Positions 19,316 through 34,737 of a stretch of 64,000 nucleotides of DNA are shown here, in pieces. The DNA lies in NCBI RefSeq assembly GCF_008274585.1, contig NZ_VTRT01000001.1, forward strand, positions 372,001 through 436,000, in the 5' to 3' direction. Every line of letters begins with the position of its first letter. Positions within the stretch are counted from its first letter, which is position 1. Origin of the DNA: Pedobacter sp. BS3. GTDB taxonomy: Bacteria; Bacteroidota; Bacteroidia; Sphingobacteriales; Sphingobacteriaceae. The notes under the pieces are model-generated. The model was not told the origin of the DNA, did not search any database, and worked only from the letters and a program-made list of their open reading frames with translations. The translations under genes and the position numbers were made by a program.

Positions 19316-19390
19316 GGGAGCATAGCTCAGCTGGTTCAGAGCATCTGCCTTACAAGCAGAGGGTCACAGGTTCGAATCCTGTTGCTCCCA
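19316..19390 (+). tRNA. tRNA-Val (anticodon TAC)
   Basis: 75 bases fold as a standard tRNA: acceptor GGGAGCA/TGCTCCC, D-arm GCTC...GAGC, anticodon stem TCTGC/GCAGA with CTTACAA loop (anticodon TAC), T-arm ACAGG-TTCGAAT-CCTGT and discriminator A. CCA is not encoded. Its 3' part from the anticodon loop onward is repeated at 34232, marking the attachment site of the island that follows. Confidence 0.97.
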
Positions 19391-19410
19391 CTACAAAAAG
19401 CCTTCAGATT
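19348..19410 (+). repeat. left attachment site (attL) within tRNA-Val
   Basis: 63 bases, identical to 34232-34294. They run from the anticodon stem of tRNA-Val through its 3' end into the terminator. After one mismatch a further 21 bases match. The distance between the copies is 14,884 bp. Confidence 0.9.
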
Positions 19411-19428
19411 GATCTCTGAGGGCTTTTT
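19395..19428 (+). terminator. terminator of tRNA-Val
   Basis: A 14-bp stem (one G-U pair) with a 6-base loop ends in a T-run, immediately after the tRNA. The same terminator is copied at 34279-34312. Confidence 0.85.
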
Positions 19429-19525
19429 TGTTGGGAAGCCTCTGACCAGCTAGCTATAAATATCCTTTGATTTACTGAAATGTTTGTGCATAGTTTGTGC
19501 CGCAAGTAGCCATAATTTAAAACCT

Positions 19526-20752
19526 ATGGTCTATTTAAAGCTAATTCTAGATGAAAGAAAATTCAAACAAAATGATATATATTCTATTGTTGTAAGAATT
19601 GTTTACAACAGAAAGGTAACAACCCTAACTACAGGAGTTAGGATAGAAAGAAAGTATTGGGACTATGCAAGTGGCCAGATTATAAATACCCATCCCAATT
19701 ATATGCTACTCAATACTAAACTCTCTGAGTTCTATTTAAAAGTTCAGAAAGCTGTTTTAAGTCTGGAAAACATAGGATCATTTTCTATAGAAGAACTTAG
19801 ACAAGAACTAAGTAATAATAAGCCAACCAATAAAATTACTAGCTCAACAACTTTTAATGAGTTTTCTCAAAAGCTTATACAAGACCTGATTGCTATTAAC
19901 AAATCTGGTAATGCTATTATCTATCGTACAGCCAGTAACCGTTTAATTGCCTATGCAGATAACCAGAAACTCAAGTTCAGAGATATAGATTATAACTTGT
20001 TAGAAGGCTTTAAAAATACTTTATTACAGGATGGCGTTAAACCCAATAGCGTACACAACTACTTCAGGACTATCCGGGCTATATATAATAAAGCTATTAA
20101 AGCTAAGCTGATAGACCGTTCCTATTATCCTTTTCATGATGTTAAAGTCAAATTGGAAAGGACTGCTAAACGTGCTGTACCTGTAGATTGTATCAAGAAG
20201 CTATACAAGTTAGAGCTTAAACCTGATTCCAGGCAATGGCATGCAAGGAACTACTTTATATTGAGCTTCTCACTAATAGGTATGTCCTTCACGGATATGG
20301 CTTACTTAATCCCTAAAAGCATAGTAAGGGGCAGGCTAATCTACAACCGCAGAAAGACCCATAAAACTTATGATATCAAGTTAACTACTGTAGCTATCCA
20401 GATATTGAAATTGTATGAGGGCAGGAATACCAAATATCTGTTACCGATACTTCCACCATCTGTAGTAGAAGATTCTATGGAAGCTAAGAAGATTATATCC
20501 CAATGGATTAAAACTACTAATAAATGGCTGAGGAAGTTAGCAGAAAGTCATAAACTGGAGGAAGACTTAACAACGTATGTTACCCGTCATAGTTGGGCCA
20601 CCTCTGCAAAACGTTTAGGATATTCCATTGAGTTAATAGCTGAAGCGATGGGACATGAGCATGGTAACCGGATAACTAATATCTACTTGGATACCTTTGA
20701 CCAAGAGGTTATTGATGAAGTGAATGAGCGGGTGGTGAATACAATAGTATAA
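19526..20752 (+). CDS. int: tyrosine recombinase / integrase of the tRNA-Val island
   Basis: 408 residues from ATG at 19526. The frame opens at 19484, but the earlier start falls in the att-proximal repeat, and homology with the second copy suggests MVYLKLIL as the N-terminus. It has an arm-binding N-terminal domain, a SAM-like core-binding domain (about 110-200) and a catalytic domain. The box-II motif TRHSW includes Arg354. His377 (GHEHG) and the nucleophile Tyr387 (NIYLD) follow. At the usual first catalytic Arg position the sequence reads FSLIGM, with Ile251, as in some divergent Bacteroidota integrases. It inserts the element into tRNA-Val. Confidence 0.93.
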   Translation: MVYLKLILDERKFKQNDIYSIVVRIVYNRKVTTLTTGVRIERKYWDYASGQIINTHPNYMLLNTKLSEFYLKVQKAVLSLENIGSFSIEELRQELSNNKPTNKITSSTTFNEFSQKLIQDLIAINKSGNAIIYRTASNRLIAYADNQKLKFRDIDYNLLEGFKNTLLQDGVKPNSVHNYFRTIRAIYNKAIKAKLIDRSYYPFHDVKVKLERTAKRAVPVDCIKKLYKLELKPDSRQWHARNYFILSFSLIGMSFTDMAYLIPKSIVRGRLIYNRRKTHKTYDIKLTTVAIQILKLYEGRNTKYLLPILPPSVVEDSMEAKKIISQWIKTTNKWLRKLAESHKLEEDLTTYVTRHSWATSAKRLGYSIELIAEAMGHEHGNRITNIYLDTFDQEVIDEVNERVVNTIV

Positions 20753-20843
20753 TTATTTAGATTTGAATAGGGGATATTAATATTTGATTAATGTTCCCTA
20801 TTTACAAAGAGTTAAATTGTAATATTGTTCATTACAATACTTT

Positions 20844-20911
20844 AACCTACCTTTAGGTTTAGTCAGTAGTATGAGTTTCTGCTGGCTAAACTTAAAACAC
20901 GGTAGGTTTTT
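20844..20911 (+). terminator. nested hairpin downstream of integrase
   Basis: Outer arms AACCTACC (20844-20851) and GGTAGGTT (20901-20908) enclose inner arms GTTTAGTCAG (20857-20866) and CTGGCTAAAC (20882-20891), followed by a T-run. It could be an integrase terminator or a small structured RNA. The remaining 20753-21114 shows no ORF. Confidence 0.55.
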
Positions 20912-21114
20912 ATATGAATAGCGACTCAATTCCTTAATGAGATACGGCTACCCTAAAGAATCTGATTGAATATGAATAAACGGCTGTATAAACAGGAATT
21001 TTGTTCATCCTAGAAGAGAATTAAAAGATAAGTTCGATAAGCCGAAGGGTGATTTGTACTTTATAGTACAACCGAGATATTGAGAAAAGTTTTGTAATTA
21101 ACAAATATTGATTA

Positions 21115-21891
21115 ATGAAAATTTCAGATTCTCTGATTAGAATTAACAGAATCTTAACTAGCCTCAATGATGGGGATGAAGTAAGTGACTTAAAATATGA
21201 GTATGCTAATATCTTAGATAATCCAAATGGGCTCTATGATGGTGAAGTTGTAAGCTGTATTTGGAATAGCGAAAGTTGTTGTTGGAATCTGGAAATTGTT
21301 AAAAATGGTTATGATTTTATTTCAATAACTGAAACTTTCTCTTCCTATGTTAGCAGAATAGTTAAATGCCATCTAAATAGTATAACCAGTTTGTTGATAA
21401 TATTTCACCTCAATTATGAACCACAGAAATTCAAAAATTTGATAAGAGGTATAATCACAGAAATGAATTTTCTTGTTTTACAATGTGGTGAATTGCCGGA
21501 ACTCAAGGCGGAATTTTCAAAATTTATAGTATATATTAAAGAAAAGTATAATAAAACAGGAGAAAGTTCTCCAATGAAGCCTATCTCTACCAAAATCAAA
21601 TTATTACGTTCAATTAACCTTTTTACAACATTCCTTTTGGATTATTCTGATAGTAAAAATACTTTAGGAAAACCTGTATTCGAAAGAGATATACCAGCTT
21701 TTAAAGAGTTAGTCATAAATAATTTCATAGATAAAGACGATCGTTCCATTTCTAAAGAAACAATAAACACTTATTTTGACACCAACAAGCAAGATGAGAA
21801 GCGTGCTAAGAAAAAACCTATTGAACTCCCCGATACTTATAATGAATTAGATGATACAGAGGTTGAAGAAACCGAAGAATCAAATTCTTAA
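21115..21891 (+). CDS. hypothetical island protein, 258 aa
   Basis: 258 residues, with no signal peptide. Its centre is moderately hydrophobic and helical. The C-terminal part reads DKDDRSISKETINTYFDTNK and then DEKRAKKKP, which faintly resembles the C-terminus of RteC-like regulators of Bacteroides mobile elements. The last 25 residues are strongly acidic. It is AT-rich like its neighbours. The function is unknown, and a regulatory role is only a guess. Confidence 0.75.
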   Translation: MKISDSLIRINRILTSLNDGDEVSDLKYEYANILDNPNGLYDGEVVSCIWNSESCCWNLEIVKNGYDFISITETFSSYVSRIVKCHLNSITSLLIIFHLNYEPQKFKNLIRGIITEMNFLVLQCGELPELKAEFSKFIVYIKEKYNKTGESSPMKPISTKIKLLRSINLFTTFLLDYSDSKNTLGKPVFERDIPAFKELVINNFIDKDDRSISKETINTYFDTNKQDEKRAKKKPIELPDTYNELDDTEVEETEESNS

Positions 21892-22033
21892 TTCCTTCAC
21901 AAAAAGTCAGCTGACCATTTTTTGACTGACTGACCTTATTTTTTTAGGCACTTTTGCATTATCGTATCAAAAAAGCCGGTTTGGTACGTGCGTGCAATAG
22001 TGCACAAAAGTAACCGGCAGGAGGAAATAGAAT

Positions 22034-23905
22034 TTGGTAAAAATTCAAAACCCCATAGTAAATATTACAGTCTCCATGTTCAGGAACTGTATAAGTAACG
22101 GGCCTCGTCAAGCTAAATTAGAAACATTGCTTGAGGCAATTAAGAACGGTAGATATGCCGCAAAAATTAATGAAATAAGAATGGCAAATGATAAAGCCAT
22201 AAAAAACAAGTTAAAAACAAATGGGTTACCCGCCTTTACCCCAAGTGGAGTATTTAACGGTGGCCGGACAATTAAAAATCTGGTTAATTATAACCCATTA
22301 GTTGTATTGGATTTTGATAATATCCCTTTAGAAAGGTATCAGGAGATATTTTATAAAATTACAGCATCACCATATACCTTAAGTGCTTTTAAAAGCCCAA
22401 AAGGAAACGGAATTAAGGTTTTGATATTAACATCCAATAATGATGCAGAGAACCATAGCATGGTGTTTTACCAGGTGGTTGATTATTACCAGGAACTGGT
22501 AAAATTTGATGTAGACCAATCAGGGAAAGATGTATCCAGATTATGTATTGTTTCTTATGATGAGCATACCTATATCAGTGATAACCCTGAAGTATTTAAA
22601 GTTAGGCCGATAGAAGAGCAGAAAGGAGAATTAGAAGTGGATAACTTAAATGTAGATTTCAATAGTGGCTATGCAATGGCATTGTCATGGACAAAAAAGA
22701 GAGAACAATTTGAAGAAGGGAGCAGGAATAATTTTATTTATTATCTGGCCTGCTGTTGTAATAGAATAGGATTAAAGCAAGATAAAGTGAGAGAGAAAAT
22801 AATAATGGAATACGGAAAAAGTGAGGATTTAATAAATGAATTTACTAAATCAGTAGACAGTGCATATGAACACCACAGAGAAGAGTTTGGTAAATTTAGG
22901 CACATAGAAGAAACAGATATAATAGAAGAAGCTGTTGCGGAAGTTGCGCAACAACCAAATGCAACAGTCAATGGAAAGGTATTGAGGGGAAGCTTAAAAA
23001 CCTTTAGAGAACTGGCTGATGAGGGCAAGAACCTAAAACCTTTAAAAAAGATTTTTGGGAATTATATTCTGGAAAAAAACACAGTCCTGTTCCCATCAGA
23101 ACGTGGAGTTGGTAAATCACTTTTAGCTATGCAGTTAGCATTAGTAGTTGCAAATGGGGATACAGAGTTTCTTGGGGAACCGATAGAACTTCATGGAAAC
23201 GTATTATATGTCAATCTTGAGTTAGGAGAATCTGTATTAGCTAGGAGAATGGCTACATTGACAAAAAATATAGAAAGCAAATCCACCACTTTTAATGCCC
23301 TCGCACTTACTTCAAGAGAGGGGCTTAAAGCGATTATAGATGATATAAAAAAGGAATGTGAAGCCTATAGCCCTGTTTTAATCATTATTGATAATCTTAG
23401 AACAGCTTTTTCCGGTGCGGATAATGAGAAGAATAAAGAAATGACTTCTGCTATTTCAATGATTAATAAATTAAAAGATGAAGTTGGAGCAGCCTTCCTC
23501 ATTGTCCATCATACTAAAAAAGGAACGCATAATCAATTAACCAATAGCGATATGCAATCAGGAGCAGGAGCGTTAACAGATTTGGTAGATGCTGATTTCT
23601 TTTTGAGAAGAAGCAATAAAGGTCGTAACCTTAGAATATTGAAAAGAATAAAATCCCGTGAATGCGAAGAGCAGGATGGCGCTAAATTAATAACCCTGAA
23701 CCCTGAAACGTTATGGTTTGAGCATCTTGAAGATAATGTGGATGAGCGTTCCCATGTATTATATGCCCCTTCAAAAGAGGATTCAGAAGAAATAAATAAG
23801 AGAATACTTGAAATGCATAAACAAGGAATATCTAATGCTGAAATAAGTCGTCAGATTGGAATAGACCGTTCAAATGTAGGAAGGAGGTTAAAGCAACTGT
23901 CATAA
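22034..23905 (+). CDS. primase-helicase-like protein (BT4734-type N-terminus plus AAA ATPase)
   Basis: 623 residues. A TTG start at 22034 follows a strong AGGAGG ten bases upstream. The N-terminus (FRNCISNGPRQAKLETLLEA, then NPLVVLDFDNI) matches the BT4734/BF3469 family. A primase C-terminal-like segment lies around 215-290, and a RepA/DnaB-like ATPase has Walker A SERGVGKS (about 354-361) and Walker B VLIIIDNL (about 446-453). The last 30 residues form a helix-turn-helix (GISNAEISRQIGIDRSNVGR). It most likely starts replication of the excised element. Confidence 0.85.
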   Translation: MVKIQNPIVNITVSMFRNCISNGPRQAKLETLLEAIKNGRYAAKINEIRMANDKAIKNKLKTNGLPAFTPSGVFNGGRTIKNLVNYNPLVVLDFDNIPLERYQEIFYKITASPYTLSAFKSPKGNGIKVLILTSNNDAENHSMVFYQVVDYYQELVKFDVDQSGKDVSRLCIVSYDEHTYISDNPEVFKVRPIEEQKGELEVDNLNVDFNSGYAMALSWTKKREQFEEGSRNNFIYYLACCCNRIGLKQDKVREKIIMEYGKSEDLINEFTKSVDSAYEHHREEFGKFRHIEETDIIEEAVAEVAQQPNATVNGKVLRGSLKTFRELADEGKNLKPLKKIFGNYILEKNTVLFPSERGVGKSLLAMQLALVVANGDTEFLGEPIELHGNVLYVNLELGESVLARRMATLTKNIESKSTTFNALALTSREGLKAIIDDIKKECEAYSPVLIIIDNLRTAFSGADNEKNKEMTSAISMINKLKDEVGAAFLIVHHTKKGTHNQLTNSDMQSGAGALTDLVDADFFLRRSNKGRNLRILKRIKSRECEEQDGAKLITLNPETLWFEHLEDNVDERSHVLYAPSKEDSEEINKRILEMHKQGISNAEISRQIGIDRSNVGRRLKQLS

Positions 23906-23906
23906 A

Positions 23907-23934
23907 TTGTTGCGTTGCAATTTAACCGCAACAA
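23907..23934. repeat. inverted repeat after primase gene
   Basis: TTGTTGCG and CGCAACAA are separated by 12 bases, directly after the primase stop codon. Confidence 0.6.
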
Positions 23935-23955
23935 ATAGCAACACTGCAACATCAG

Positions 23956-23995
23956 AGGTCGGTAGAAATACCGGCCTTTGTTATTTTAAATTTTT
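23956..23995 (+). terminator. terminator of primase-helicase gene
   Basis: An 8-bp stem GGTCGGTA/TACCGGCC with a GAAA tetraloop is followed by a T-rich tail. Confidence 0.75.
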
Positions 23996-24125
23996 TTCCA
24001 ATTTTTTCAGCGCAATTATTCTCGCAACCCTCCCCATAAACAACTCCCCTACCTGATTTTGGAATTGCCGGATACCCGGTAAACTCCAGGAGTTATAAAT
24101 CAAATTTTTCAAAAAACACATTATT

Positions 24126-24452
24126 ATGGTAACAATTACAGGTTATGAAAAAAGACAGGGAGAGCAGCAAGAGTTCTTCCTGTTGCAATTACAGGGAGAT
24201 ATTGAAATAGTCTATTCCCAAACTACAGGACAACCCTATGCCACTGTCAGAAAAACCCTGATGTCAACAACATTTAATGAAGCAACATGTCAGGCGTTAA
24301 TAGGAAAGCAATTGCCCGGAAATATTACTAAAGTAAGTACAGAACCCTATGAATACACCATTCCGGAGACAGGTGAAGTCAAAACACTGGATTACAGGTA
24401 TCAATATGCTCCAGAAGAAACCCAGACAGTAGAAGAAGCAGTATTTGCTTAG
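24126..24452 (+). CDS. hypothetical protein upstream of Sak4-like ATPase, 108 aa
   Basis: 108 residues, beta-rich by composition, with an acidic C-terminus (APEETQTVEEAVFA). The size, the acidic tail and the position just before a recombination ATPase recall a single-stranded-DNA-binding protein, but I see no firm OB-fold signature. It may bind DNA in the same recombination module. It has no membrane segment or signal peptide. Confidence 0.75.
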   Translation: MVTITGYEKRQGEQQEFFLLQLQGDIEIVYSQTTGQPYATVRKTLMSTTFNEATCQALIGKQLPGNITKVSTEPYEYTIPETGEVKTLDYRYQYAPEETQTVEEAVFA

Positions 24453-24534
24453 TCTATAATACCCACACTTTATTCATGATAAGGGATTACAACAGTAGTC
24501 CCTTTTTTATTTCATCACCATTTATAACAAGAAT

Positions 24535-25449
24535 ATGCAGATTAGAAAAGCAGAAAGAAAGTATGCCAAAATTAAAATGGCAGTACAAGGAGCAGCAGGC
24601 TCCGGTAAAACCTATAGCTCACTATTAATAGCCTATGGACTATGTGCAGACTGGACAAAGATTGTCATTATAGATACCGAAAATAACAGCGCAGATTTAT
24701 ATGCCGATTTAGGTAACTATAATGTATTACCCATACAAGAACCCTTCACACCAGAAAAGTACATCCAGGCCATAACCCTATGTGTACAATCCGATATGGC
24801 AGTTATCATCATCGATAGTTTAAGCCATGCATGGGAATACCTTTTAGACCAACATGCAAATATGGCCGGGAACAGCTTTACCAATTGGGCAAAAATTACA
24901 CCACGACAGAACGCATTAGTAAATGCCATCCTGCAAAGTAACACCCATATCATAGCCACCATGCGGGTAAAGCAAGATTATGTATTAAACCAGAAAGATG
25001 GCAAATACATACCAGAGAAAGTAGGCTTAAGAGCCATACAACGAGATGGGTTAGATTATGAATTCACCATTGTACTGGATATAGATATCAAACATTATGC
25101 AACAGCATCCAAAGACAGGACAGGCTTATTTATGGATAAACCAGCATCAAAAATATCCAGTGAAACCGGGGAACATATCCTCAACTGGTGTATCTCCTCC
25201 TTTAGAAGAGAAGATAGCCCCGAACCTATCCTTCCAGACAATACCATAGATACCATTAAACAAGCCATTAATCAGGCAACAACTATAGAAGAACTCAGGA
25301 AGATATTTAATGACAATCCCCAATACCAGCAATCACTTGCCGAAGAATTCTCAAAAAAGAAAACGGCCTTAACCACCATCAATCAGTTAACCCAATCATT
25401 AAACACCAAATTCAATCCCAATGGAAGCATTACCATTAACCGTACCTGA
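24535..25449 (+). CDS. Sak4-like RecA-fold ATPase (phage recombination type)
   Basis: 304 residues. The N-terminus carries Walker A GAAGSGKT (about residues 19-26) and Walker B AVIIIDSL (about 90-97), with NTHIIATMRVKQDYV after it, as in the AAA_24/Sak4 group of phage single-strand annealing ATPases. The C-terminal 80 residues are a helical tail. It likely helps recombination or replication of the element. Its 3' end overlaps the DUF3871 gene by 29 bases, so they are co-translated. Confidence 0.85.
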   Translation: MQIRKAERKYAKIKMAVQGAAGSGKTYSSLLIAYGLCADWTKIVIIDTENNSADLYADLGNYNVLPIQEPFTPEKYIQAITLCVQSDMAVIIIDSLSHAWEYLLDQHANMAGNSFTNWAKITPRQNALVNAILQSNTHIIATMRVKQDYVLNQKDGKYIPEKVGLRAIQRDGLDYEFTIVLDIDIKHYATASKDRTGLFMDKPASKISSETGEHILNWCISSFRREDSPEPILPDNTIDTIKQAINQATTIEELRKIFNDNPQYQQSLAEEFSKKKTALTTINQLTQSLNTKFNPNGSITINRT

Positions 25450-26395
25450 TACAGCCATGAATGTATCATCAGAAAAAGCCTTTATACAAGCCAATACCAG
25501 CCCCATTACCTTACAGGAAATCAGACAAAAACATATCATCCCCGTTTTTGTAAAAGATAATGAACCGGTTATTAGCCATGCAGACTTCATAGAAACAACA
25601 ATAGATGTGGTACAACACCTGTTCCAGCATGAAACCATATTATCCCCCGCAATACGCATCAGCCATCCCATAAAAGGAAGAATACCCGAAGCAAAAGAAA
25701 AACCAGCCAGTCAGTTACTGGAATCAGAAAAGACCGTGTATTATGAACGTATGGCCTTTATTGTAGAAATACCAAGCATAAGCGATGATATATCAGGCAA
25801 CAAGCTGTCACTAACAATAGGAGGCGTAAAATCCCATCACCAGGATAACCTGTCCGGTAAAAAAGGTTCAGATGAACACTTCAAGCTATTTATAGGATTC
25901 CAGAATAAAGTATGTACCAATCTATGCATCTGGTCAGACGGATTTATAGCCGATTTAAAAGTAAAAACCAGCCACCAGTTAATGGATGGTATCATACACC
26001 TGCTGGTCAGTTATAATGCAAAACAACATATAGATAACATGCGCCAGTTAAGCAATTACTACCTGTCAGAATATGAATTTGCCCAGTTAGTAGGCCGGTG
26101 CAGAATGTACCATTATCTACCCAATGAATTTAAAAAGAAGCTGCCGGTATTCCAATTTGGAGACACCCAATTAGGTATCTTAACCAGAGATTACTATAAA
26201 GATGAAGCATTTCGTCAATATGAAGATGGAAGTATAGACCTGTGGCGGTTATATAACCTGCTTACAGGAGTAAATAAATCCAGCTATATCGATACCTTTC
26301 TGGATAGAGGAGCAAATGCCTTCGACTTCACCAATAAGTTATACCAGGCTGTAAGTAACAAAGAATACAATTGGTTTCTACATGGCAGAAAGTAA
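25421..26395 (+). CDS. DUF3871-family protein
   Basis: 324 residues matching what I know of DUF3871, a Bacteroidota family found in prophages and integrative elements. Recognisable segments are SHADFIETTIDVVQHLF, PAIRISHPIKGR, SLTIGGVKSHHQDN and NLCIWSDGF, ending with AVSNKEYNWFLHGRK. The biochemical role is unknown. The family has been compared with DUF932 plasmid and phage proteins. It overlaps the Sak4-like gene upstream, and its stop overlaps the next start (TAATG). Confidence 0.85.
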   Translation: MEALPLTVPDTAMNVSSEKAFIQANTSPITLQEIRQKHIIPVFVKDNEPVISHADFIETTIDVVQHLFQHETILSPAIRISHPIKGRIPEAKEKPASQLLESEKTVYYERMAFIVEIPSISDDISGNKLSLTIGGVKSHHQDNLSGKKGSDEHFKLFIGFQNKVCTNLCIWSDGFIADLKVKTSHQLMDGIIHLLVSYNAKQHIDNMRQLSNYYLSEYEFAQLVGRCRMYHYLPNEFKKKLPVFQFGDTQLGILTRDYYKDEAFRQYEDGSIDLWRLYNLLTGVNKSSYIDTFLDRGANAFDFTNKLYQAVSNKEYNWFLHGRK

Positions 26396-26634
26396 TGATG
26401 GATGCGCCCCAATTCTATCAATACCTGAACTATAAAAGCATATTAATAGTTACCCAAAAGAATAAGCTGGAACGCTTATATTGTCCATTCAGGGTATGTA
26501 AAAAATCCCCTACCGGAAGAACAATAATCTATATAGTAGAGCAAGTTAAAGCCGGGGAACATAACCATATTTATTATAAAATAAACGGCAGATATGAAGC
26601 CTATTCCGGTTACCAGATATTATGTAATAGCTGA
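26395..26634 (+). CDS. small hypothetical protein, 79 aa
   Basis: It starts at ATG 26395, overlapping the DUF3871 stop as TAATG, which indicates translational coupling. It has the sequence style of a small phage protein (MMDAPQFYQYLNYKSIL at the start) with two Cys spaced five residues apart (YCPFRVCK). The function is unknown. Confidence 0.65.
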   Translation: MMDAPQFYQYLNYKSILIVTQKNKLERLYCPFRVCKKSPTGRTIIYIVEQVKAGEHNHIYYKINGRYEAYSGYQILCNS

Positions 26635-26989
26635 TTTAGCAAGATATTCAATCTCGCTGCAATTATTGATTATTTTAAATAATACTATCGGCAGGACATT
26701 ACTATTAATATAGCTAATATAGTTAACACAGCTAAAGAGGTTATGCTGGATTTTCTTTAAAAGTATTCTTATGAGACGGTTTCCTCTATAATAAAAACCC
26801 CTGAAAAGAACACCAAATGCAACTTATCATTATCACTTAGTTAAACCAGATAGCTAAAATGAAAATACCAAGTGAGAAGTTAAGACATATTTTATAAATT
26901 AGCCTTACCATTAAAGCGGAGGTAAACAACCAGAAAAGTAGATTGTAAACAATTTATTTATAAAAATATAAGCGTTAGCTATCAGTTCT

Positions 26990-27117
26990 TGCATCTCAGG
27001 AATCCTAGGAAAATTTCAGAAACATTGCAACAAGAACAGGTACGACAACGCCTACGTAAAAGCGTAGGTGCTTGTCTATCTGTTGCAATAGGTCTCTCCT
27101 AGGAACCTCTGAGTGCA
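26990..27117 (+). ncRNA. putative structured RNA or hairpin-rod DNA element
   Basis: Four nested stems form one long rod. Stem A pairs TGCA-CTCAG (26990-26999) with CTGAG-TGCA (to 27117). Stem B is TCCTAGGA (27003-27010) with TCCTAGGA (27097-27104). Stem C is ATTGCAACA (27024-27032) with TGTTGCAAT (27081-27089). Stem D is GACAA plus CGCCTACG with CGTAGGTG plus TTGTC (27044-27076), and the loop is TAAAAG. About 39 pairs lie in 128 bases of a gene-free region (26635-27193). The strand is unknown. A further stem AGTTCC/GGAACT (27127/27166) follows. It could be an RNA, a packaging site or a replication site. Confidence 0.6.
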
Positions 27118-27193
27118 GATAAGATGAGTTCCCTACGCTTTCTCATTTATTAACCCACCGTGTTCGGAACTGCCCGGTATAAATTAATTTTTT

Positions 27194-28045
27194 ATGAAAA
27201 AATATGTATTGGTATTATGCGCAGTAACAACACTATTGTCCTGTTCAAAGAGCAAAAAGAGGGACGACTCACCAACGTCACAGTCTTCATTATTATCTAA
27301 GATTATTGAGGTCGAATCCACCGGAAAAGAGCTAATCAAAACAGAATTTAATTATTCTGAGAACAACCAGCTTAAAGAAATGATAGAGCATCATTATGAT
27401 GAAGGTATTGAGGGAAACCGATATGTTTTTAATTACAATAACGATGTGATTCAATCAATAGATGCCTATTCTTTAGGTACTGGCAGGCATTATGCAACTA
27501 TTAACCAGTTTAAATTTAATAATAATCACCCTACTCATTTTGTGTATAATTTTTTAGGGTTCAGTGATGCCGATCAATATGCACAATACTATATGATTAA
27601 TGATTTAAGTTATGCTAATAACAGGTTAACTACTATAGTAGCAAAGAGTTATGAAACTTATAGTAATGAATTAAATCAGACTGAAATATCAACATATAAC
27701 TATGATAATAATGGGAAATTAATCAATATACACAAAGCGACAGAATTTCCTTTATCTGGAGTATCCAGAGATACAATCACATTTAAATCCTATGATGGTA
27801 AGAAGAGTATATTAAGTCCATTTCCAGAGTGGTTTATGGTGACTATGTATTCACCTCCAACAGAATTAACGTCAAGTCCATTTGGCAATATATTGGAAGA
27901 AGAAGAAAACGGCGATGGATATTATTACAAATATCAATATGAATATGGATATAATGAACAAGGTTACCCAATAACAAGCACTTCGGTGTTGTATACTAAC
28001 AACCAGTTGAATCTATCGATTTCATATAGATATGAGTATAAATAA
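27194..28045 (+). CDS. exported lipoprotein with YD-like beta repeats
   Basis: 283 residues. The signal peptide ends in a lipobox (TLLSCSKS, Cys17), so it is a lipoprotein. The mature part is rich in YxYxxNGxL units (FNYSENNQLKEM, YNYDNNGKLINIH, YEYGYNEQGYPI), typical of small Bacteroidota surface lipoproteins of the DUF4595-like kind. It opens a run of six genes for exported proteins. The function is unknown. Confidence 0.8.
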   Translation: MKKYVLVLCAVTTLLSCSKSKKRDDSPTSQSSLLSKIIEVESTGKELIKTEFNYSENNQLKEMIEHHYDEGIEGNRYVFNYNNDVIQSIDAYSLGTGRHYATINQFKFNNNHPTHFVYNFLGFSDADQYAQYYMINDLSYANNRLTTIVAKSYETYSNELNQTEISTYNYDNNGKLINIHKATEFPLSGVSRDTITFKSYDGKKSILSPFPEWFMVTMYSPPTELTSSPFGNILEEEENGDGYYYKYQYEYGYNEQGYPITSTSVLYTNNQLNLSISYRYEYK

Positions 28046-28134
28046 TTCAAATGCCTTGAAAAATCATTAGATGATGGAGGGGGATAGTGACAAATATTAG
28101 CCATATCTACCCTCTCTTTTAAATAAAAGTTGTT

Positions 28135-28566
28135 ATGAAAAAATATATTCTAGAAGTAAATCTCTTGCTCATTATCATAGTTGCGAGCTTAAATGCCTAT
28201 TCTCAAGCAGGACTAAATAAATCAAAGGAGGATTTGTTAAACTTTATTAAAAGACCAGCCTACGCAGATTTATACCCAGAAGTCACAATTGCAGATACGT
28301 CTATTGTAACATTCTCAAGTGATTTTAAAAAGGCAGAACACTATCATTTAAATGCCTATAAGAGATGCGTTATGGAGGTTATGTCAGAAAAAATTGAATA
28401 TAATAACTATGAATCGATAATGTCATTTTTTGTAAGATATCTAAAGGCGTGCAATTATGAACCTAGTCTAGAAATTGATAATAAATATGTGAATAGCTCT
28501 AAAAGAATAATTGCTTACATAGAAAAGAATGACGAATGGTTAAACATTGTGTTTAAAAAGTATTAG
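28135..28566 (+). CDS. exported hypothetical protein, 143 aa
   Basis: An N-terminal signal peptide (MKKYILEVNLLLIIIVASLN, cleavage likely after AYSQ) precedes a soluble domain of about 120 residues with no known motif. The next gene starts two bases after its stop, so the two are coupled. Confidence 0.75.
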   Translation: MKKYILEVNLLLIIIVASLNAYSQAGLNKSKEDLLNFIKRPAYADLYPEVTIADTSIVTFSSDFKKAEHYHLNAYKRCVMEVMSEKIEYNNYESIMSFFVRYLKACNYEPSLEIDNKYVNSSKRIIAYIEKNDEWLNIVFKKY

Positions 28567-28568
28567 AT

Positions 28569-29144
28569 ATGCCAAAGTATATTTTTTCAACTATAATTTC
28601 TCTATTAATAGGATTAAATTCTCTAAATGCCCAAATAATAGAGATTAAGAAAAAAATAAGTGAGATTTTCTTTGATTTTAATCTTAGCCCTGAAAAGTTT
28701 GATATAAAAAGAAACTATGATAGAAGCGATAATTTTTATGACTATGATGAGATTAAATTTGGTGATCAAGATGATGTAACGTTCAAATTTGAGGAGCATC
28801 CTCTGTTAAATTTCTTAGGTAAGAAAAATGAAATAACGATTATTTTCAAACCAAGTGGAGCTTTTGATCAATTAATAATTTTGAGTCATTATCCAGCGTC
28901 TGAAATCGGAAAATGTGAGGCTCAAATACAACAGATATTATCTTACTTTAACAAGTTATGTTATAAGGTAAAAAGTAGCATATCCCAAAATGGTCAAAAG
29001 AAACTGGTAGGTAGGGGTTATTTCTTTTATTCATCCCTTAATCAAAGTAAAACATTCAAGCCTTTTCTGAATATCTCATGTGATATAGATCGCTATGGAG
29101 GCTATGTGCTAGATATTCATTATTTCCCATCTTTTTTAAAGTAA
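28569..29144 (+). CDS. exported hypothetical protein, 191 aa
   Basis: A signal peptide (about residues 1-21, ending LNAQ) is followed by a charged soluble domain. No motif is recognised. It starts two bases after the preceding stop and ends 33 bases before the repeat protein. Confidence 0.75.
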   Translation: MPKYIFSTIISLLIGLNSLNAQIIEIKKKISEIFFDFNLSPEKFDIKRNYDRSDNFYDYDEIKFGDQDDVTFKFEEHPLLNFLGKKNEITIIFKPSGAFDQLIILSHYPASEIGKCEAQIQQILSYFNKLCYKVKSSISQNGQKKLVGRGYFFYSSLNQSKTFKPFLNISCDIDRYGGYVLDIHYFPSFLK

Positions 29145-29177
29145 TTCTGAACGTTAAATCTCTATAATGCATATACA

Positions 29178-29603
29178 ATGAAACAATTTTTAATGACAAT
29201 AGCATTAAGCTTAATAACAGCTCTCTGCTACAGCCAGGTAACTTATTCAAAAGATTACGCTGGAAACACGGTGGCAAAAGACCAATATGGAAATATTATA
29301 GCTATTGGTTCTACAGATTATTCCGGCAAGTTTGTTTGGAAAGATAAATATGGAAATATAATTAATACCGAATCAACAGATTATTTAGGAAATACCGTAA
29401 AGAAAGACCAGTATGGAAATACAGAAAGCATACAATCAAATGATTTCCTGGGAAATACTGTTGAGAAGGATAAATATGGCAATATCCTATATATCTATTC
29501 AAAAGACTTTGCGGGTAATATCTTAAAGAAAGATAAATATGGTAACCTTATTGGCACTTACAAAAAGGACTATTCCGGGAATTGGGTATTCTACCCTAGG
29601 TAA
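29178..29603 (+). CDS. exported 21-residue-repeat protein
   Basis: 141 residues. A signal peptide ending in CYSQ is followed by about five and a half tandem units of 21 residues with the pattern DYxGNTVxKDxYGN and a variable tail (for example TDYLGNTVKKDQYGNTESIQ). Such a short regular beta-repeat suggests a beta-solenoid or ladder, perhaps surface-exposed. Copy number could vary by slippage of the 63-bp DNA repeat. The function is unknown. Confidence 0.8.
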   Translation: MKQFLMTIALSLITALCYSQVTYSKDYAGNTVAKDQYGNIIAIGSTDYSGKFVWKDKYGNIINTESTDYLGNTVKKDQYGNTESIQSNDFLGNTVEKDKYGNILYIYSKDFAGNILKKDKYGNLIGTYKKDYSGNWVFYPR

Positions 29604-29638
29604 TGTTACAATAACTCATTTACTTAATTCAGCACAAG

Positions 29639-30265
29639 ATGAAGAACTTATTATTAATTACAGTTTTTACTATCTATGGGCAAATAACTAGTGCCCAATC
29701 AACAAAATATCTACTTCCTAACATTGGCTTTATCACTGTTTCAGATAAGATGGAAATCCAAGGCGGTAGTTACAAAGCTGAGGTTAATGACTACTTAGTA
29801 GCCAATGGGGTATCCACAAGTAATAGATATGTATTTCAGCAAAAAGGAATTAATTCTGGAAATGGCTATGATACCTATGCGAGGATTATTATAAAAAAGA
29901 ATGATGAGGCCCCAAGTATCTATTTATACAAGCTAAAATCAAATGGTATCTATACAAAATCTGAATTAAACAGCCTGAATACACGGTTGAAAAAGGAAAT
30001 ACAAGATGCTATTTCTGCTTATGTAAATGCCTCTATTACATATTGGAAAGGTGTTGAACAGGTTAAAATCAATGGACAAAATGCCTTACAGTGTGTATAT
30101 AAAAGAAAATCAGCTATGAGTCCATCCGTTACCTGTGTCAAAAGACTTTTATTAGTCAGAGGGAATAGCCTTTATCTAGTCAATCTGGAATATTGGGAAA
30201 AAGATGCATCCTTATGGAAATCTATTCTGGATAATAGCATTGCTTCATTTAAAATCAAGGCATAA
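29639..30265 (+). CDS. exported hypothetical protein, 208 aa
   Basis: A signal peptide (about residues 1-19, ITSAQ) precedes a soluble domain with the general look of PsbP/DUF1795-like proteins: an early beta segment, WKGVEQVKINGQNALQCVYK in the middle and a C-terminal SLWKSILDNSIASFKI. That fold likeness is inferred by eye only. Confidence 0.75.
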   Translation: MKNLLLITVFTIYGQITSAQSTKYLLPNIGFITVSDKMEIQGGSYKAEVNDYLVANGVSTSNRYVFQQKGINSGNGYDTYARIIIKKNDEAPSIYLYKLKSNGIYTKSELNSLNTRLKKEIQDAISAYVNASITYWKGVEQVKINGQNALQCVYKRKSAMSPSVTCVKRLLLVRGNSLYLVNLEYWEKDASLWKSILDNSIASFKIKA

Positions 30266-30290
30266 AACCAATACTAAACAATAAAAATTA

Positions 30291-30821
30291 ATGAAAATGA
30301 AAAAAATCGTATTTATCACATTGACTATATTTATGAGTAGATCACTCTTTGCTCAAGATAAGATTATTACTCATGTAGGAGATACTATTAACTGTAAAGT
30401 TATAGAGGTGCTGGACAATAGTATCAAATATAGATATCCCGATGAGGATATAGTTTCATCAATAAATAAAACCCAGGTAGAAAAGATAAATTTTGCTAGT
30501 GGAAGAAGCCAACAGATAACTGAAAAAATAGTTGTGAATGGGGAAGAAGATTGGCAAAAGGTTATTATAACAAATGTTGCTGACGATGTAAAAGGGTTAA
30601 AGCGAAAGGGTGAAGTATATGGTAAAGCCTTAGGTGGCTGGGGAGCAGCCTCAAATGCTAAAAAAGTTTATATGAAAGCAGAAGAGAGACTAAAAAAAGA
30701 AGCTGCTAAATTGGGTGCACATATCATTTATGCAAAAGATTTAGTAGTAAAGAATGGAGAAATTACAAGTGGTCAGTGGGCCCGGTCAATGCTTTCTGGT
30801 GTAGCTTATGGCTATAAATAA
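30291..30821 (+). CDS. exported hypothetical protein, 176 aa
   Basis: After a signal peptide (ending SLFAQ) comes a small beta domain (DTINCKVIEVLDNSIKYRYP). The second half, RLKKEAAKLGAHIIYAKDLV, resembles heavy-metal-binding or YdgH-like alpha-beta domains. I recall relatives in Bacteroidota genomes, all of unknown function. It is the last of six exported cargo proteins. Confidence 0.75.
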   Translation: MKMKKIVFITLTIFMSRSLFAQDKIITHVGDTINCKVIEVLDNSIKYRYPDEDIVSSINKTQVEKINFASGRSQQITEKIVVNGEEDWQKVIITNVADDVKGLKRKGEVYGKALGGWGAASNAKKVYMKAEERLKKEAAKLGAHIIYAKDLVVKNGEITSGQWARSMLSGVAYGYK

Positions 30822-30977
30822 GTATAATTTTATATGCAAAAGGTACTGCTGGTTTAATCTTTCTTAGCAGTCTGGATTATACTGAATACTCAAATCCAGC
30901 GGCAGTTATTCTGAATATATGAGATTATTCCGGTCAATTAGGCATACATTGCTTTTACTCTTGCTTATCCCTGTTAT

Positions 30978-31328
30978 ATGCTCAAAATATCTTCGCATGT
31001 AAGTGCTATATTTAAATATGTTTGTCGTGAATGCAAATATGAAGTAGTGCTCAAAACAGGTAACAATGCTTTTGGTTTGCAGCCAGGAAACCCAACTCAC
31101 AGATTGGGCACTTGCTTAAATTGTCATAAATTAGTTTCAACACCTAATAATTGTTGCCCCTTCTGCGGTACTAAAGAATATAAGAATAAATGGTATCGAT
31201 TTAGAAAGAAGCAAAGCCTGTTTAAATTGGTTGAGGCTGAATTTGGTGTAAATACTGGGATACCTTGTCCTAATTGCAATTATCAGAGCTTAATATGTAT
31301 ACGCAAGCTGGTTGTAGAGACTAATTAA
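30978..31328 (+). CDS. zinc-ribbon protein, 116 aa
   Basis: Four CxxC knuckles (CRECKY, CLNCHK, CPFCGT and CPNCNY) indicate two zinc ribbons. There is no signal peptide or enzyme domain. It could be a nucleic-acid- or protein-binding adaptor. The start is not firmly fixed. Confidence 0.75.
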   Translation: MLKISSHVSAIFKYVCRECKYEVVLKTGNNAFGLQPGNPTHRLGTCLNCHKLVSTPNNCCPFCGTKEYKNKWYRFRKKQSLFKLVEAEFGVNTGIPCPNCNYQSLICIRKLVVETN

Positions 31329-31364
31329 CACTTATGAAACCTAATGCAATAAAGGTATTAGCAA

Positions 31365-31395
31365 CTGACAGTTTTTTAGAACCCCTGACTGTCAG
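31365..31395. terminator. inverted repeat / possible terminator
   Basis: CTGACAGT (31365) pairs with ACTGTCAG (31388), with a T-run inside the loop, between the zinc-ribbon gene and the convergent membrane-protein gene. Confidence 0.4.
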
Positions 31396-31534
31396 ATCAA
31401 GTAGTGGCTATTACAATTAATTTTATTGTGTGGCAGCTCTGAGAATTCCTGAACTCGGTGTAGTATAGTCGGAGTACACGGTCTAAGTTTGCACGTCAGC
31501 CCACCTGATAGAAAACCAGTGTTGGCTGTCGTTT

Positions 31535-32485
31535 TTATTGGAATAGCTTCATCTGTTTGTCGTTTTCGTTCTTATCTCTTCGGTATTTTTTCCCTTGGTC
31601 TGTTTCAATAATGTTGTTACTTTCTACAATTTCTAATACTGTCAAAACTTGTGAACTTATAGTTTGTATAACTCCGATTTCATCAATTTTTCTATTTTGA
31701 TGCAAAACACATTTTATTGCAATTCCATTTACAAACTCTACTTGTTTGTTTAGAACTGAATTTTTAAAGTCTTTGTCTTTCATTTCAAAGCTTAAAACTT
31801 GTCCCTTGTAAATACCCTTCCATTGAAAGCCTCCTTTTGTCAAAACTGGTGAAACAATAACAATTACTGCTTCATCATCAATTAATGGCGAAAATTTGTC
31901 TGAATGGACAATTAATAAAGGAAATTGATTTCTAAAAACGGTGCGTTCTGGATTTGTCGGCTTGTTGTTATTGCCTAAAAGTTGTGTTGAGATTTTGTTA
32001 ACCTTTGGATAGAAACTAAGTTTTTTGTAAAAATTTGATTTGTGCCATATGATTTTGTAGTCATTGTCAAGTTTCTCAATGACTTTTTCAACAATTTCGT
32101 CAGTCACATCTTCATCGGTTTTTACTTCTTGCTTAATCTTCTTTAACTCGTTCTGCTTAATTTCATTATCAAGCTTTAAGTTTTCAATTTGAAGTTTAAC
32201 GAGTTCCTTGTTTTCGACTGGAATTCTTGAAATTATGACTGTAAATAATGCAAGAATTAATGTGATTTGTGCACTGTTTTTCCCTAATGCCTTCCAGCAA
32301 TTTTTAAGTCCGCCTTCTAAAAAAGCTTCACTGTCAATTTCAATTTCAACATTTAATGAAACAATTAGTTCTTTTATGATTAATAGAAGTTCTCTTTCAC
32401 ATTCATTTCTCACTGTAGCATTCATAGAGTGAGAATTGTCAGTAAAGTAATAGTGAAGTTCGAACTTGTCTGAAGGTCTAATCAT
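31535..32485 (-). CDS. membrane and coiled-coil protein paired with TIR gene
   Basis: 316 residues. An N-terminal soluble part of about 70 residues is followed by one membrane segment (about 72-87, ITLILALFTVIIS). Next comes a charged coiled coil (about 92-145), then a C-terminal beta-rich domain of about 150 residues (IIWHKSNFYKKLSFYP onward). I do not recognise the family. It lies downstream of the TIR-domain gene on the same strand, separated by an attC-like palindrome. A membrane-anchored partner or target of the TIR protein is possible. Confidence 0.8.
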   Translation of the reverse strand: MIRPSDKFELHYYFTDNSHSMNATVRNECERELLLIIKELIVSLNVEIEIDSEAFLEGGLKNCWKALGKNSAQITLILALFTVIISRIPVENKELVKLQIENLKLDNEIKQNELKKIKQEVKTDEDVTDEIVEKVIEKLDNDYKIIWHKSNFYKKLSFYPKVNKISTQLLGNNNKPTNPERTVFRNQFPLLIVHSDKFSPLIDDEAVIVIVSPVLTKGGFQWKGIYKGQVLSFEMKDKDFKNSVLNKQVEFVNGIAIKCVLHQNRKIDEIGVIQTISSQVLTVLEIVESNNIIETDQGKKYRRDKNENDKQMKLFQ

Positions 32486-32513
32486 TTGAGATGTAATGTG
32501 TCACTAAAATAGC

Positions 32514-32631
32514 AGCCAACGTTTCGGGTATTGCCGTCAGGTGGGGGGTAGCACTGCCGCTTGATAGAAATACTAGCAAAAATGTTCATTATCGTTCCGT
32601 CATCCTCGCTTGTGGCAATACCTTGTTAGGC
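32514..32631 (-). other. attC-like imperfect palindrome between the TIR and membrane genes
   Basis: Read on the minus strand, GCCTAAC (32631-32625) begins 6 bases after the TIR stop codon and pairs, with one bulged base, with GTTGGCT (32520-32514). Just inside, GGTATTGCC and GGCAATACC (32614-32622, 32527-32535) are a perfect 9-bp pair. The total is 118 bases. The R''/R' boxes, inner arms, length and tight fit between genes all resemble an integron attC. One base departs from the GTTRRRY consensus, and no integron integrase is in the window. Confidence 0.5.
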
Positions 32632-32637
32632 ACACAG

Positions 32638-33450
32638 TTATTTGTCTTTTCTACTTTCAATAAGTGATTTTCCTCTTTCCATTTCTCGCCGAATTATACT
32701 TCTAGGATATGTGCCTTTTTCTGAAAGAATACTCAAAATTAATTCTTCTGGTAATTCTTGTTCTAGATAGTTTTGAATTTGCATTTTTAGTTCTCCTAAA
32801 TTAAGTCTTTCAGGTTCTCTTCTTATAATTTCATTTTCTGAAAATATGATTTGCCTCTCATTATTGGATTCTATGTTACGTAGTCGTTTGTCAAGAATCC
32901 GAACTGTTGATAAAACATCTAACATAATATCGTTGTCCTTTCTCTTTGTTACAACTTCCGTTTCAGGTGTGGAAACAATTATTTCCTGAAAATCTATTTC
33001 AAATTGAGACCAATAAGTGTCAAACACTTTAGATAATATCGATTCTTTTAAAGCATTTTCTTTTAAGGACAAATTAATAGTTCTTACTAACTCCCAAACA
33101 CTATCTCTAGTCGGAAAGGTATGATTGAATTGTGCTAATGGATTCTCTAAATCTGTGGGTGCCAAGTCAATTAAAAAAGTACAAACTCTGTTTGAAGTAA
33201 GCCCTTTTGCTAGAGCTCCCGATTCAAATAAAATCCAAGGTTTATTTTTATTTTCTTTGGTTAAACAAACTATACCAATACTGGTATTTGCTAATTGGTC
33301 GGTTATTTCAGTGAACCATAATGCACCTCGGTCAATGTCTTTTGAAGACATCCAAGGATTAACTGCTTGCAAAACACATTGAATCCAGCCGTCTAGTAAT
33401 TCAGCTACTCTTTTGCTTCGGTCACCTGACCAACTAATAAATACCTTCAT
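32638..33450 (-). CDS. TIR-domain protein, probable NAD-cleaving defence effector
   Basis: 270 residues. The N-terminal TIR domain (about 1-135) starts MKVFISWSGDRSKRVAELL and has the motif PWILFESGAL with the likely catalytic Glu76. The remaining half is helical, ending with a charged segment (RREMERGKSLIESRKDK). Bacterial TIR proteins usually cleave NAD or make signalling nucleotides in antiphage defence. That function is inferred here. It sits in the cargo end of the mobile element, with the membrane protein downstream. Confidence 0.88.
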   Translation of the reverse strand: MKVFISWSGDRSKRVAELLDGWIQCVLQAVNPWMSSKDIDRGALWFTEITDQLANTSIGIVCLTKENKNKPWILFESGALAKGLTSNRVCTFLIDLAPTDLENPLAQFNHTFPTRDSVWELVRTINLSLKENALKESILSKVFDTYWSQFEIDFQEIIVSTPETEVVTKRKDNDIMLDVLSTVRILDKRLRNIESNNERQIIFSENEIIRREPERLNLGELKMQIQNYLEQELPEELILSILSEKGTYPRSIIRREMERGKSLIESRKDK

Positions 33451-33594
33451 TTTGTTTTTGTGTTAATGATTATGGGCTATATATATATTGAGCCTAGCTA
33501 GTTAGTTTATACCCGAACCAAAAGTTCGGCAATCATGTCAAAACTAGGTAGATATACGAACCCTTTGGTGGATGATATATTGATTTAAAACTCA

Positions 33595-33951
33595 TCATTT
33601 AACCAAAATCTGCTTCACCTCTTTAACCACAATCTCAGGCTTACCTTTATATTCAATCACTTCACCAGTTACACAGATACGTTTACGGAAGTAAGTAGTT
33701 TCAGGAGCAGAACTGAATAGCTCCCTTGCCTCCTTAGGTATCATAACTGTTAAGGGACTGTCCGGATAACGAGCGCCCAAGTTTAATAAGGTGATACCCG
33801 ATTTATCAAAATACTTAGTCCCATATACACTATCACATACAGTAACTGTTTCCCCTTTATGCTTATACGCCTCTGATGTAGGGATAGTCTGGCTATATAA
33901 TGATAACGCAGTGGTTACTAATAATAAAGTGGGTAAGAGCAATTTATACAT
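33595..33951 (-). CDS. exported OB-fold-like protein, 118 aa
   Basis: A signal peptide (about residues 1-20, ALSLYSQ) is followed by a compact domain with KGETVTVCDSVYG, LLNLGARYPDSPLTVMI and KRICVTGEVIEYKGKPEIVV. This is the pattern of exported OB-fold proteins common in Bacteroidota and often seen next to nucleases. The role is unknown. It is the last intact gene before the right end of the island. Confidence 0.8.
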   Translation of the reverse strand: MYKLLLPTLLLVTTALSLYSQTIPTSEAYKHKGETVTVCDSVYGTKYFDKSGITLLNLGARYPDSPLTVMIPKEARELFSSAPETTYFRKRICVTGEVIEYKGKPEIVVKEVKQILVK

Positions 33952-34150
33952 TGTGATTTAGGTTGATAGCTAAGGTACGAAAATGAAATTAATTAATGCA
34001 ATGATTAAATTCATTTTGTTGGTAAACTAATTTTTAAATTTCAATAAATGACGTGATATACTGACTGACTCACCCAATGAGTAAAATAAGGCTGAAATAT
34101 TAGCTGATATATTTATTACAATAATTAACTATTATTAAAACCGGTTATTT

Positions 34151-34176
34151 GTATGTGCATAGTATGTGCCAGCATT
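34151..34176. promoter_or_regulatory. putative integrase arm-type site, right end
   Basis: A TATGTGC-ATAG-TATGTGCC motif resembles TTTGTGC-ATAG-TTTGTGCC found 5' of the integrase at about 19481-19501 and again at about 34365-34386. Directly repeated heptamers at both ends of an element are what arm-type integrase sites look like. Confidence 0.45.
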
Positions 34177-34231
34177 TTGAGTTACCCTTAAATTGGGCTT
34201 AACAGTTATAATAGAGATATTAAAAGCTACC

Positions 34232-34294
34232 CCTTACAAGCAGAGGGTCACAGGTTCGAATCCTGTTGCTCCCACTACAAAAAGCCTTCAGATT
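34232..34294 (+). repeat. right attachment site (attR), partial tRNA-Val copy
   Basis: 63 bases identical to 19348-19410. It holds the anticodon loop to the 3' end of tRNA-Val, without the 5' half, so it is not a working tRNA. It is followed by the copied terminator. Confidence 0.9.
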
Positions 34295-34411
34295 AATCTC
34301 TGAGGGCTTTTTTGTTTTGGGAAGCCTCTGACCAGCCCGCTATAAATATCCTTTGATTTACTGAAATGTTTGTGCATAGTTTGTGCCGCAAGTGGCCATA
34401 ATTCAAAACTT

Positions 34412-34737
34412 ATGGTCTATTTAAAGCTAATTCTATATGACAGAAAGTTCAAACAAGATGATATCTATCCTATTTCTGTTAGAATTATTTATAACAGAAA
34501 AACAACAACTATTAGTTCAGGAGTTAGAATAGAAGGAAAGTATTGGGATTATGCAAGTGGTAGTATTATAAATACTCATCCCAATTATATGCTACTCAAT
34601 ACTAAGCTCTCTGAGTTCTATTTAAAAGTTCAGAAAGCTATCCTAAATCTGGAAAATACAGCTTCATTTTCTATAGAAGAACTTAGACAGGAGCTAAGTA
34701 ATAATAAACCAGTCAATAAGATTAATAGCTCAACAAG
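34412..34737 (+). pseudogene. 5' fragment of a second integrase
   Basis: About 109 codons from MVYLKLIL match the N-terminal domain of the integrase at 19526 closely, with many conservative differences. Similarity stops abruptly after the codons for SST near 34736, where chromosomal sequence begins. The core-binding and catalytic domains are missing, so it is inactive. The upstream 120 bases are also shared, including the copied tRNA terminator. It is best explained as the left end of a second related element whose body was deleted. Confidence 0.88.

Follow-up and report, generated by a model that had tools for sequence, protein, structure and literature searches.

A conserved leader RNA with alternating pairings ahead of integrative-element cargo and unrelated genes in Bacteroidia

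Related leader RNAs and the setting of the window copy

Attenuators of the trp type have four successive RNA strands that pair either as 1:2 and 3:4 or as 2:3, with a U-rich tract 3' of strand 4. The leader RNA described here shares this plan. It differs in having no conserved leader peptide, in carrying an additional long helix between strands and a fifth strand before the start codon, and in that one RNA family serves unrelated genes. With riboswitches built on terminator platforms it has in common a structured leader and conserved internal loops (5' AAA opposite CCU), putative sites of ligand binding; unlike them, it has no common downstream metabolic theme, which would be unusual for a metabolite riboswitch. 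The EAR and put antiterminator RNAs are promoter-proximal structured RNAs that precede varied or long operons and act on RNA polymerase, letting it pass later terminators, whereas in the leader studied here the terminator-like hairpin belongs to the same switch.

Structured RNA candidates from the Bacteroidetes include Pedo-repair and Flavo-1 (PMC2864571), which come from the same phylum and are Rfam families; neither matches the leader. HMP2_4078, also from this phylum, is a 109-bp palindromic candidate near integrases (PMC8040213), and 64 structured 5' regions are reported from Flavobacterium psychrophilum (PMC9723704). These two sets were compared by description, and the leader family may overlap some of their members.

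The window, a 64,000-nucleotide stretch of the Pedobacter sp. BS3 genome, contains an integrative element whose tRNA-Val(tac) 3'-end repeats lie at 19348-19432 and 34232-34316. Its core encodes a BT4734-like/AAA primase-helicase, a Sak4-like AAA protein, and a DUF3871 protein. The leader divides this core from the cargo, in agreement with an earlier sequence-only reading that placed a rod-like structure between replication genes and cargo. The main features of the element are as follows.

19348..34316, plus strand: integrative element at tRNA-Val(tac), bounded by an 85-nt repeat that includes the tRNA 3' end
19484-20752: integrase, with integrase domains
25421-26395: DUF3871 protein, followed by a small ORF ending at 26634
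27194..28045, plus strand: first cargo gene, a predicted lipoprotein, 54 nt 3' of strand 4
31535..33450, minus strand: defence-like cargo, a PDC-S42 protein and a TIR-TM protein (PADLOC E values of 2.1e-117 and 1.4e-59)

Because the PDC-S42 and TIR-TM genes are on the opposite strand, they fall outside the leader's transcript, and the leader would control only the plus-strand cargo from 27194 onward. A further cargo gene (29178-29603) encodes a secreted protein of repeated DYxGN / KDxYGN motifs without a confident family. Just past the right tRNA-Val repeat lies a second, truncated copy of the integrase 5' end (34310-34609), which shares 88% identity with 19424-19723 over 300 nt; it is taken as a remnant left at this site by another element. 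Searches of plasmid and phage collections returned no close DNA relatives, and both the exact pattern and DUF3871 relatives were absent from viral contigs. A retron was also considered; none of the element genes examined was identified as a reverse transcriptase.

Architecture of the leader

The sequence-only reading described a nested rod on the plus strand at 26990-27117 with a TAAAAG loop and the palindromic arms TGCA and TCCTAGGA, and we find its stems, loop, and arms as described. The rod has a minimum free energy (MFE) of -55.7 kcal/mol compared with -27.3 +/- 3.4 for 200 dinucleotide shuffles (z of -8.3), none of which is as good; its reverse strand reaches -53.2 (z of -6.8). The same reading considered the location gene-free. 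Indeed, long ORFs are absent from the surrounding gap (26635-27193), but the larger conserved unit described below lies about 50 nt 5' of the cargo start codon and so does not occupy empty spacer. The downstream CCTACGC (27133), put forward as a possible competitor for GCGTAGG, is real and forms the end of strand 4 (27116-27139), which is among the best supported parts of the RNA. The rod forms the central part of a longer conserved RNA that extends from 26971 to about 27180-27193 and has the following parts.

26900..26907, plus strand: weak promoter-like site, TAGCCTTA, with one mismatch to TAnnTTTR
26971..26991, plus strand: strand 1, AGCGTTAGCTATCAGTTCTTG, partner of strand 2 in the alternative state
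26990..27117, plus strand: rod, made of the outer helices and strand 2:strand 3, the proposed antiterminator state
27031..27056, plus strand: strand 2, CAAGAACAGGTACGACAACGCCTACG, whose 1:2 pairs co-vary
27058..27082, plus strand: strand 3, the apical loop and 3' arm, AAAAGCGTAGGTGCTTGTCTATCTG
27116..27139, plus strand: strand 4, CAGATAAGATGAGTTCCCTACGCT, which makes the 3:4 terminator-like hairpin
27140..27151, plus strand: T-rich tract, directly 3' of strand 4
27157..27178, plus strand: P5 hairpin, whose loop carries strand 5 (GGAACT, 27166-27171)

AGCG and TTCTTG in strand 1 are nearly invariant, as are GTCC and CGCT in strand 4 across the leader family. Strand 5 is complementary to AGTTCC (27127-27132) of strand 4, and its motif lies a median of 22 nt upstream of the ATG. 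Only about one nucleotide links strand 1 to the outer helix, a geometry that suggests that 1:2 and the full rod should be mutually exclusive. A closing stem between 5' AGCG and 3' CGCT was also considered and set aside as weakly supported (strand 1 with strand 4, 76/100).

The T-rich tract is a property of the family: 92 of 100 copies have at least 5 T in 9 nt, and the T fraction after strand 4 falls from about 0.6 to 0.15 past 12 nt. Copies in the home family have a T-rich stretch here and not a clean T run; runs of at least 5 T follow strand 4 in 14/20 copies from outside that family, and runs of 5-8 occur elsewhere in the class.

Folded alone, the 3:4 region (27057-27142) reaches -36.1 kcal/mol, with a mean of -38.9 kcal/mol over 100 copies, and the 1:2 region (26969-27052) reaches -18.0 kcal/mol. 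The loop of the 3:4 hairpin is long (about 30 nt in the window), longer than is usual for a terminator. The whole leader folds at -69.0, compared with about -57.5 for the two hairpins 1:2 and 3:4 together. The rod is thus thermodynamically favored, and the alternative state would need kinetic or bound-factor control.

Distribution, covariation, and alternating pairings

BLAST found about 28 homologues of the leader at 67-84% identity. A covariance model built on 26 of these homologues matched 223/401 genomes of the leader's own family, Sphingobacteriaceae, at E <= 0.01, the E-values of the covariance models coming from short calibrations. A second model, refined on 100 copies, matched 195/301 genomes in a sample of the order, with 1-8 copies each and with all of the matches listed belonging to the leader's own family. 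In a sample of the class it matched 98/395 genomes across about 36 other families; in a sample of the phylum, nearly every match was within the same class, with four weak matches outside it. The family is therefore class-wide: about two in three Sphingobacteriaceae genomes carry the leader, as does one in four of the Bacteroidia genomes sampled. Relatives that carry it include Pedobacter, Sphingobacterium, Mucilaginibacter, Daejeonella, and Desertivirga. As the sequence-only reading suspected, it fits no known RNA family: the Rfam 15 covariance models match neither the window RNA nor copies from the wider family or class. The genome of the window has six copies by the first model. One 1.9-Mb genome has seven, before different genes, and the strand 1 region is nearly identical in the six that were read.

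A covariance check on homologues had been proposed as the way to challenge the rod, which would fall if compensatory changes were missing; covariation proved to be very strong. In an alignment of 100 copies, fitted to the model structure, 91.6% of rod cells are paired, double-sided changes occur in 30/33 pairs, and the rod covariation score is 0.587, compared with 0.214 for shuffled controls, which are inflated by related copies, and at most 0.094 for slid partners. Near-identical copies are a small share of this alignment (effective number about 90/100). In a plain MAFFT alignment of 26 homologues, not fitted to the structure, covariation is lower yet still above shuffles. Further, an unbiased mutual-information scan that included the flanks recovers the rod, 1:2 pairs that join the 5' flank to the inner 5' arm, and 3:4 pairs; the apical-loop letters of strand 3 co-vary with bases past the last CGCT, the end of strand 4. 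RNAalifold, given the MAFFT alignment, did not return the rod but found the 1:2 and 3:4 pairs instead, which points to an alternative state. A candidate P0 hairpin did not rise above shuffles on aligned columns, probably owing to misalignment.

The plus strand is the working strand. Rod pairs include 285 G-U against 45 A-C, an excess that favors the plus strand as the working RNA, and full-length copies at fetched loci score 80-136 bits on the sense strand versus at most 23 on the reverse.

In a test that requires no alignment, the duplex within each copy was set against duplexes formed with partners from other copies. The three successive pairings alternate in the manner of an attenuator: across 100 copies, a copy's own duplex beats the cross-copy duplexes in 92/100 for 1:2, 99/100 for 2:3, and 99/100 for 3:4, compared with 41 and 44 of 100 for the control pairings 2:4 and 1:3. 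Similarly, among 20 copies from outside the family in the rest of the class, 1:2, 2:3, and 3:4 each win in 20/20 and the controls in 10/20. The result for 3:4 lends support to the earlier suggestion that CCTACGC competes for GCGTAGG and may allow switching. The 4:5 pairing is the weakest, with the own duplex ahead in 84/100 copies and in 16/20 outside the family.

Place in the transcript and likely mode of action

Copies of the family occupy 5' leaders, between promoter and first gene. Sites of the type TAnnTTTR, which resemble the known Bacteroidota -7 promoter element, occur at -95..-45 in 28 of 36 homologues compared with 5.6 expected; the window copy has no exact match upstream, only the weak site listed above. 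The starts of downstream ORFs peak 45-60 nt past strand 4 (65 in this bin, 0-8 in any other), a fixed spot before the start codon, and a few copies have no nearby downstream ORF. The genes behind the leader are mutually unrelated and share no downstream pathway. They encode secreted proteins, lipoproteins, ECF sigma/anti-sigma/SusC operons, TerD, a response regulator, an SH3 protein, and a DnaK-like protein; in the genome of the window, the genes found behind the remaining copies include dnaK-like, terD, response-regulator, and SH3 genes. Together with covariation and the alternating pairings, the fixed distance to start codons supports the earlier proposal of a regulatory RNA.

We consider it fairly likely that this 5' leader RNA acts in cis as a transcription attenuator, that the rod is one of its conformations, and that 2:3 serves as the antiterminator. 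As in attenuators, successive pairings exclude one another, the 3:4 hairpin is followed by a U tract, and the RNA lies between promoter and first gene. The leader probably controls transcription of the genes that follow it, here the element cargo. RNA polymerase would start at a promoter about 60-85 nt 5' of strand 1, so that strands 1, 2, 3, and 4 emerge in order. Should strand 1 pair with strand 2, strand 3 would be left free for strand 4, and the resulting GC-rich hairpin and U-rich tract would end transcription prematurely, before the genes. Should strands 2 and 3 pair and the long outer helix zip up, the rod would act as the ON state: 3:4 would be blocked, transcription would proceed, and strand 4 may engage strand 5 within a hairpin immediately 5' of the start codon. 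Some signal, be it a protein, a small molecule, temperature, or polymerase speed, would shift the balance.

A ribosome-mediated attenuator would have a short ORF overlapping strand 1. ATG frames of at least 5 codons reach strand 1 only 7 times in 100 copies, and no leader peptide is conserved; a translated one is unlikely, and a bound factor, polymerase speed, or temperature is the more probable trigger.

The conservation of strand 5 and its narrow spacing to the start codon raise an alternative in which the strands control access to that codon: the rod would permit 4:5 and alter initiation, 3:4 would leave strand 5 free, and premature termination would not be needed. The 4:5 counts within and outside the family and the median distance of 22 nt to the ATG agree with such a translational switch. 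We nevertheless judge it unlikely, since no pairing is weaker than 4:5 and the T-rich tract, with T runs of 5-8 in the class, is best explained by termination. Still less probable is a free-standing small RNA, in which transcription would normally stop after strand 4, the released rod would act in trans on a protein or RNAs, and the downstream gene would be read by leakage only. Its own promoter, terminator-like end, and very stable rod would suit such an RNA, as would the few copies without a close downstream ORF; against it, most copies have a start codon at a fixed distance, the genes there are unrelated, and strand 5, past the terminator, is conserved.

The sequence-only reading also proposed looking for the same rod in related elements. 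About twenty homologous elements of the family indeed carry it, in the order integrase, core genes, leader, and variable cargo. A RadC gene is often present, the replication modules are unlike that of the window, and the cargo includes TIR, FRG, OLD-like, and RelA/SpoT-type proteins with PADLOC matches. This recurrence at the core-cargo border, together with the ability of both DNA strands to fold, would suit a DNA site of the mobile element, with hairpin DNA serving as a single-strand origin or as a transfer, packaging, or recombination site. Such a site (an origin, oriT, or attC-like) should be bound to mobile elements and indifferent to wobble pairs. The leader is not specific to mobile elements, with many copies outside them before dnaK-like, terD, sigma-factor, or SusC-type operons, and G-U is kept far above A-C on one strand. 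Nor do similar 3' hairpins recur between cargo genes as in integron-like cassettes. With the fixed start-codon distance added, these observations speak against the earlier suggestion of a packaging or single-strand replication or transfer site, and we regard a DNA site as very improbable.

If the leader is an attenuator, it adds a widespread form of post-initiation control to a phylum in which little of this kind has been charted, and it illustrates a possible way for mobile elements to keep cargo in check. A broader proposal, to which we give an even chance, is that undescribed, Bacteroidia-wide five-strand leader switches sense one common signal and gate unrelated genes, and that integrative elements took them over for cargo control.

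Three sets of loci have additional features around the leader. At 11 loci, small proteins of roughly 75 aa encoded directly behind it resemble the RNA polymerase alpha C-terminal domain (best PDB profile E of 0.0012), with a weaker likeness to NusA acidic repeats. Their genes often stand alone or ahead of sigma-factor operons, and the proteins could themselves act on transcription termination. At five others, a divergent gene upstream of the leader has, by eye, the look of an XRE-type regulator, and small proteins are encoded downstream, in some cases with SusC or TlpA-like genes; these copies possibly form a separate subtype. At two loci, a second short module lies after the leader and ahead of the first cargo gene. 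It consists of the promoter-like TATCTTTG, AGTCCC, and a hairpin with a GGGAC loop, and resembles a 4:5 unit without the rod.
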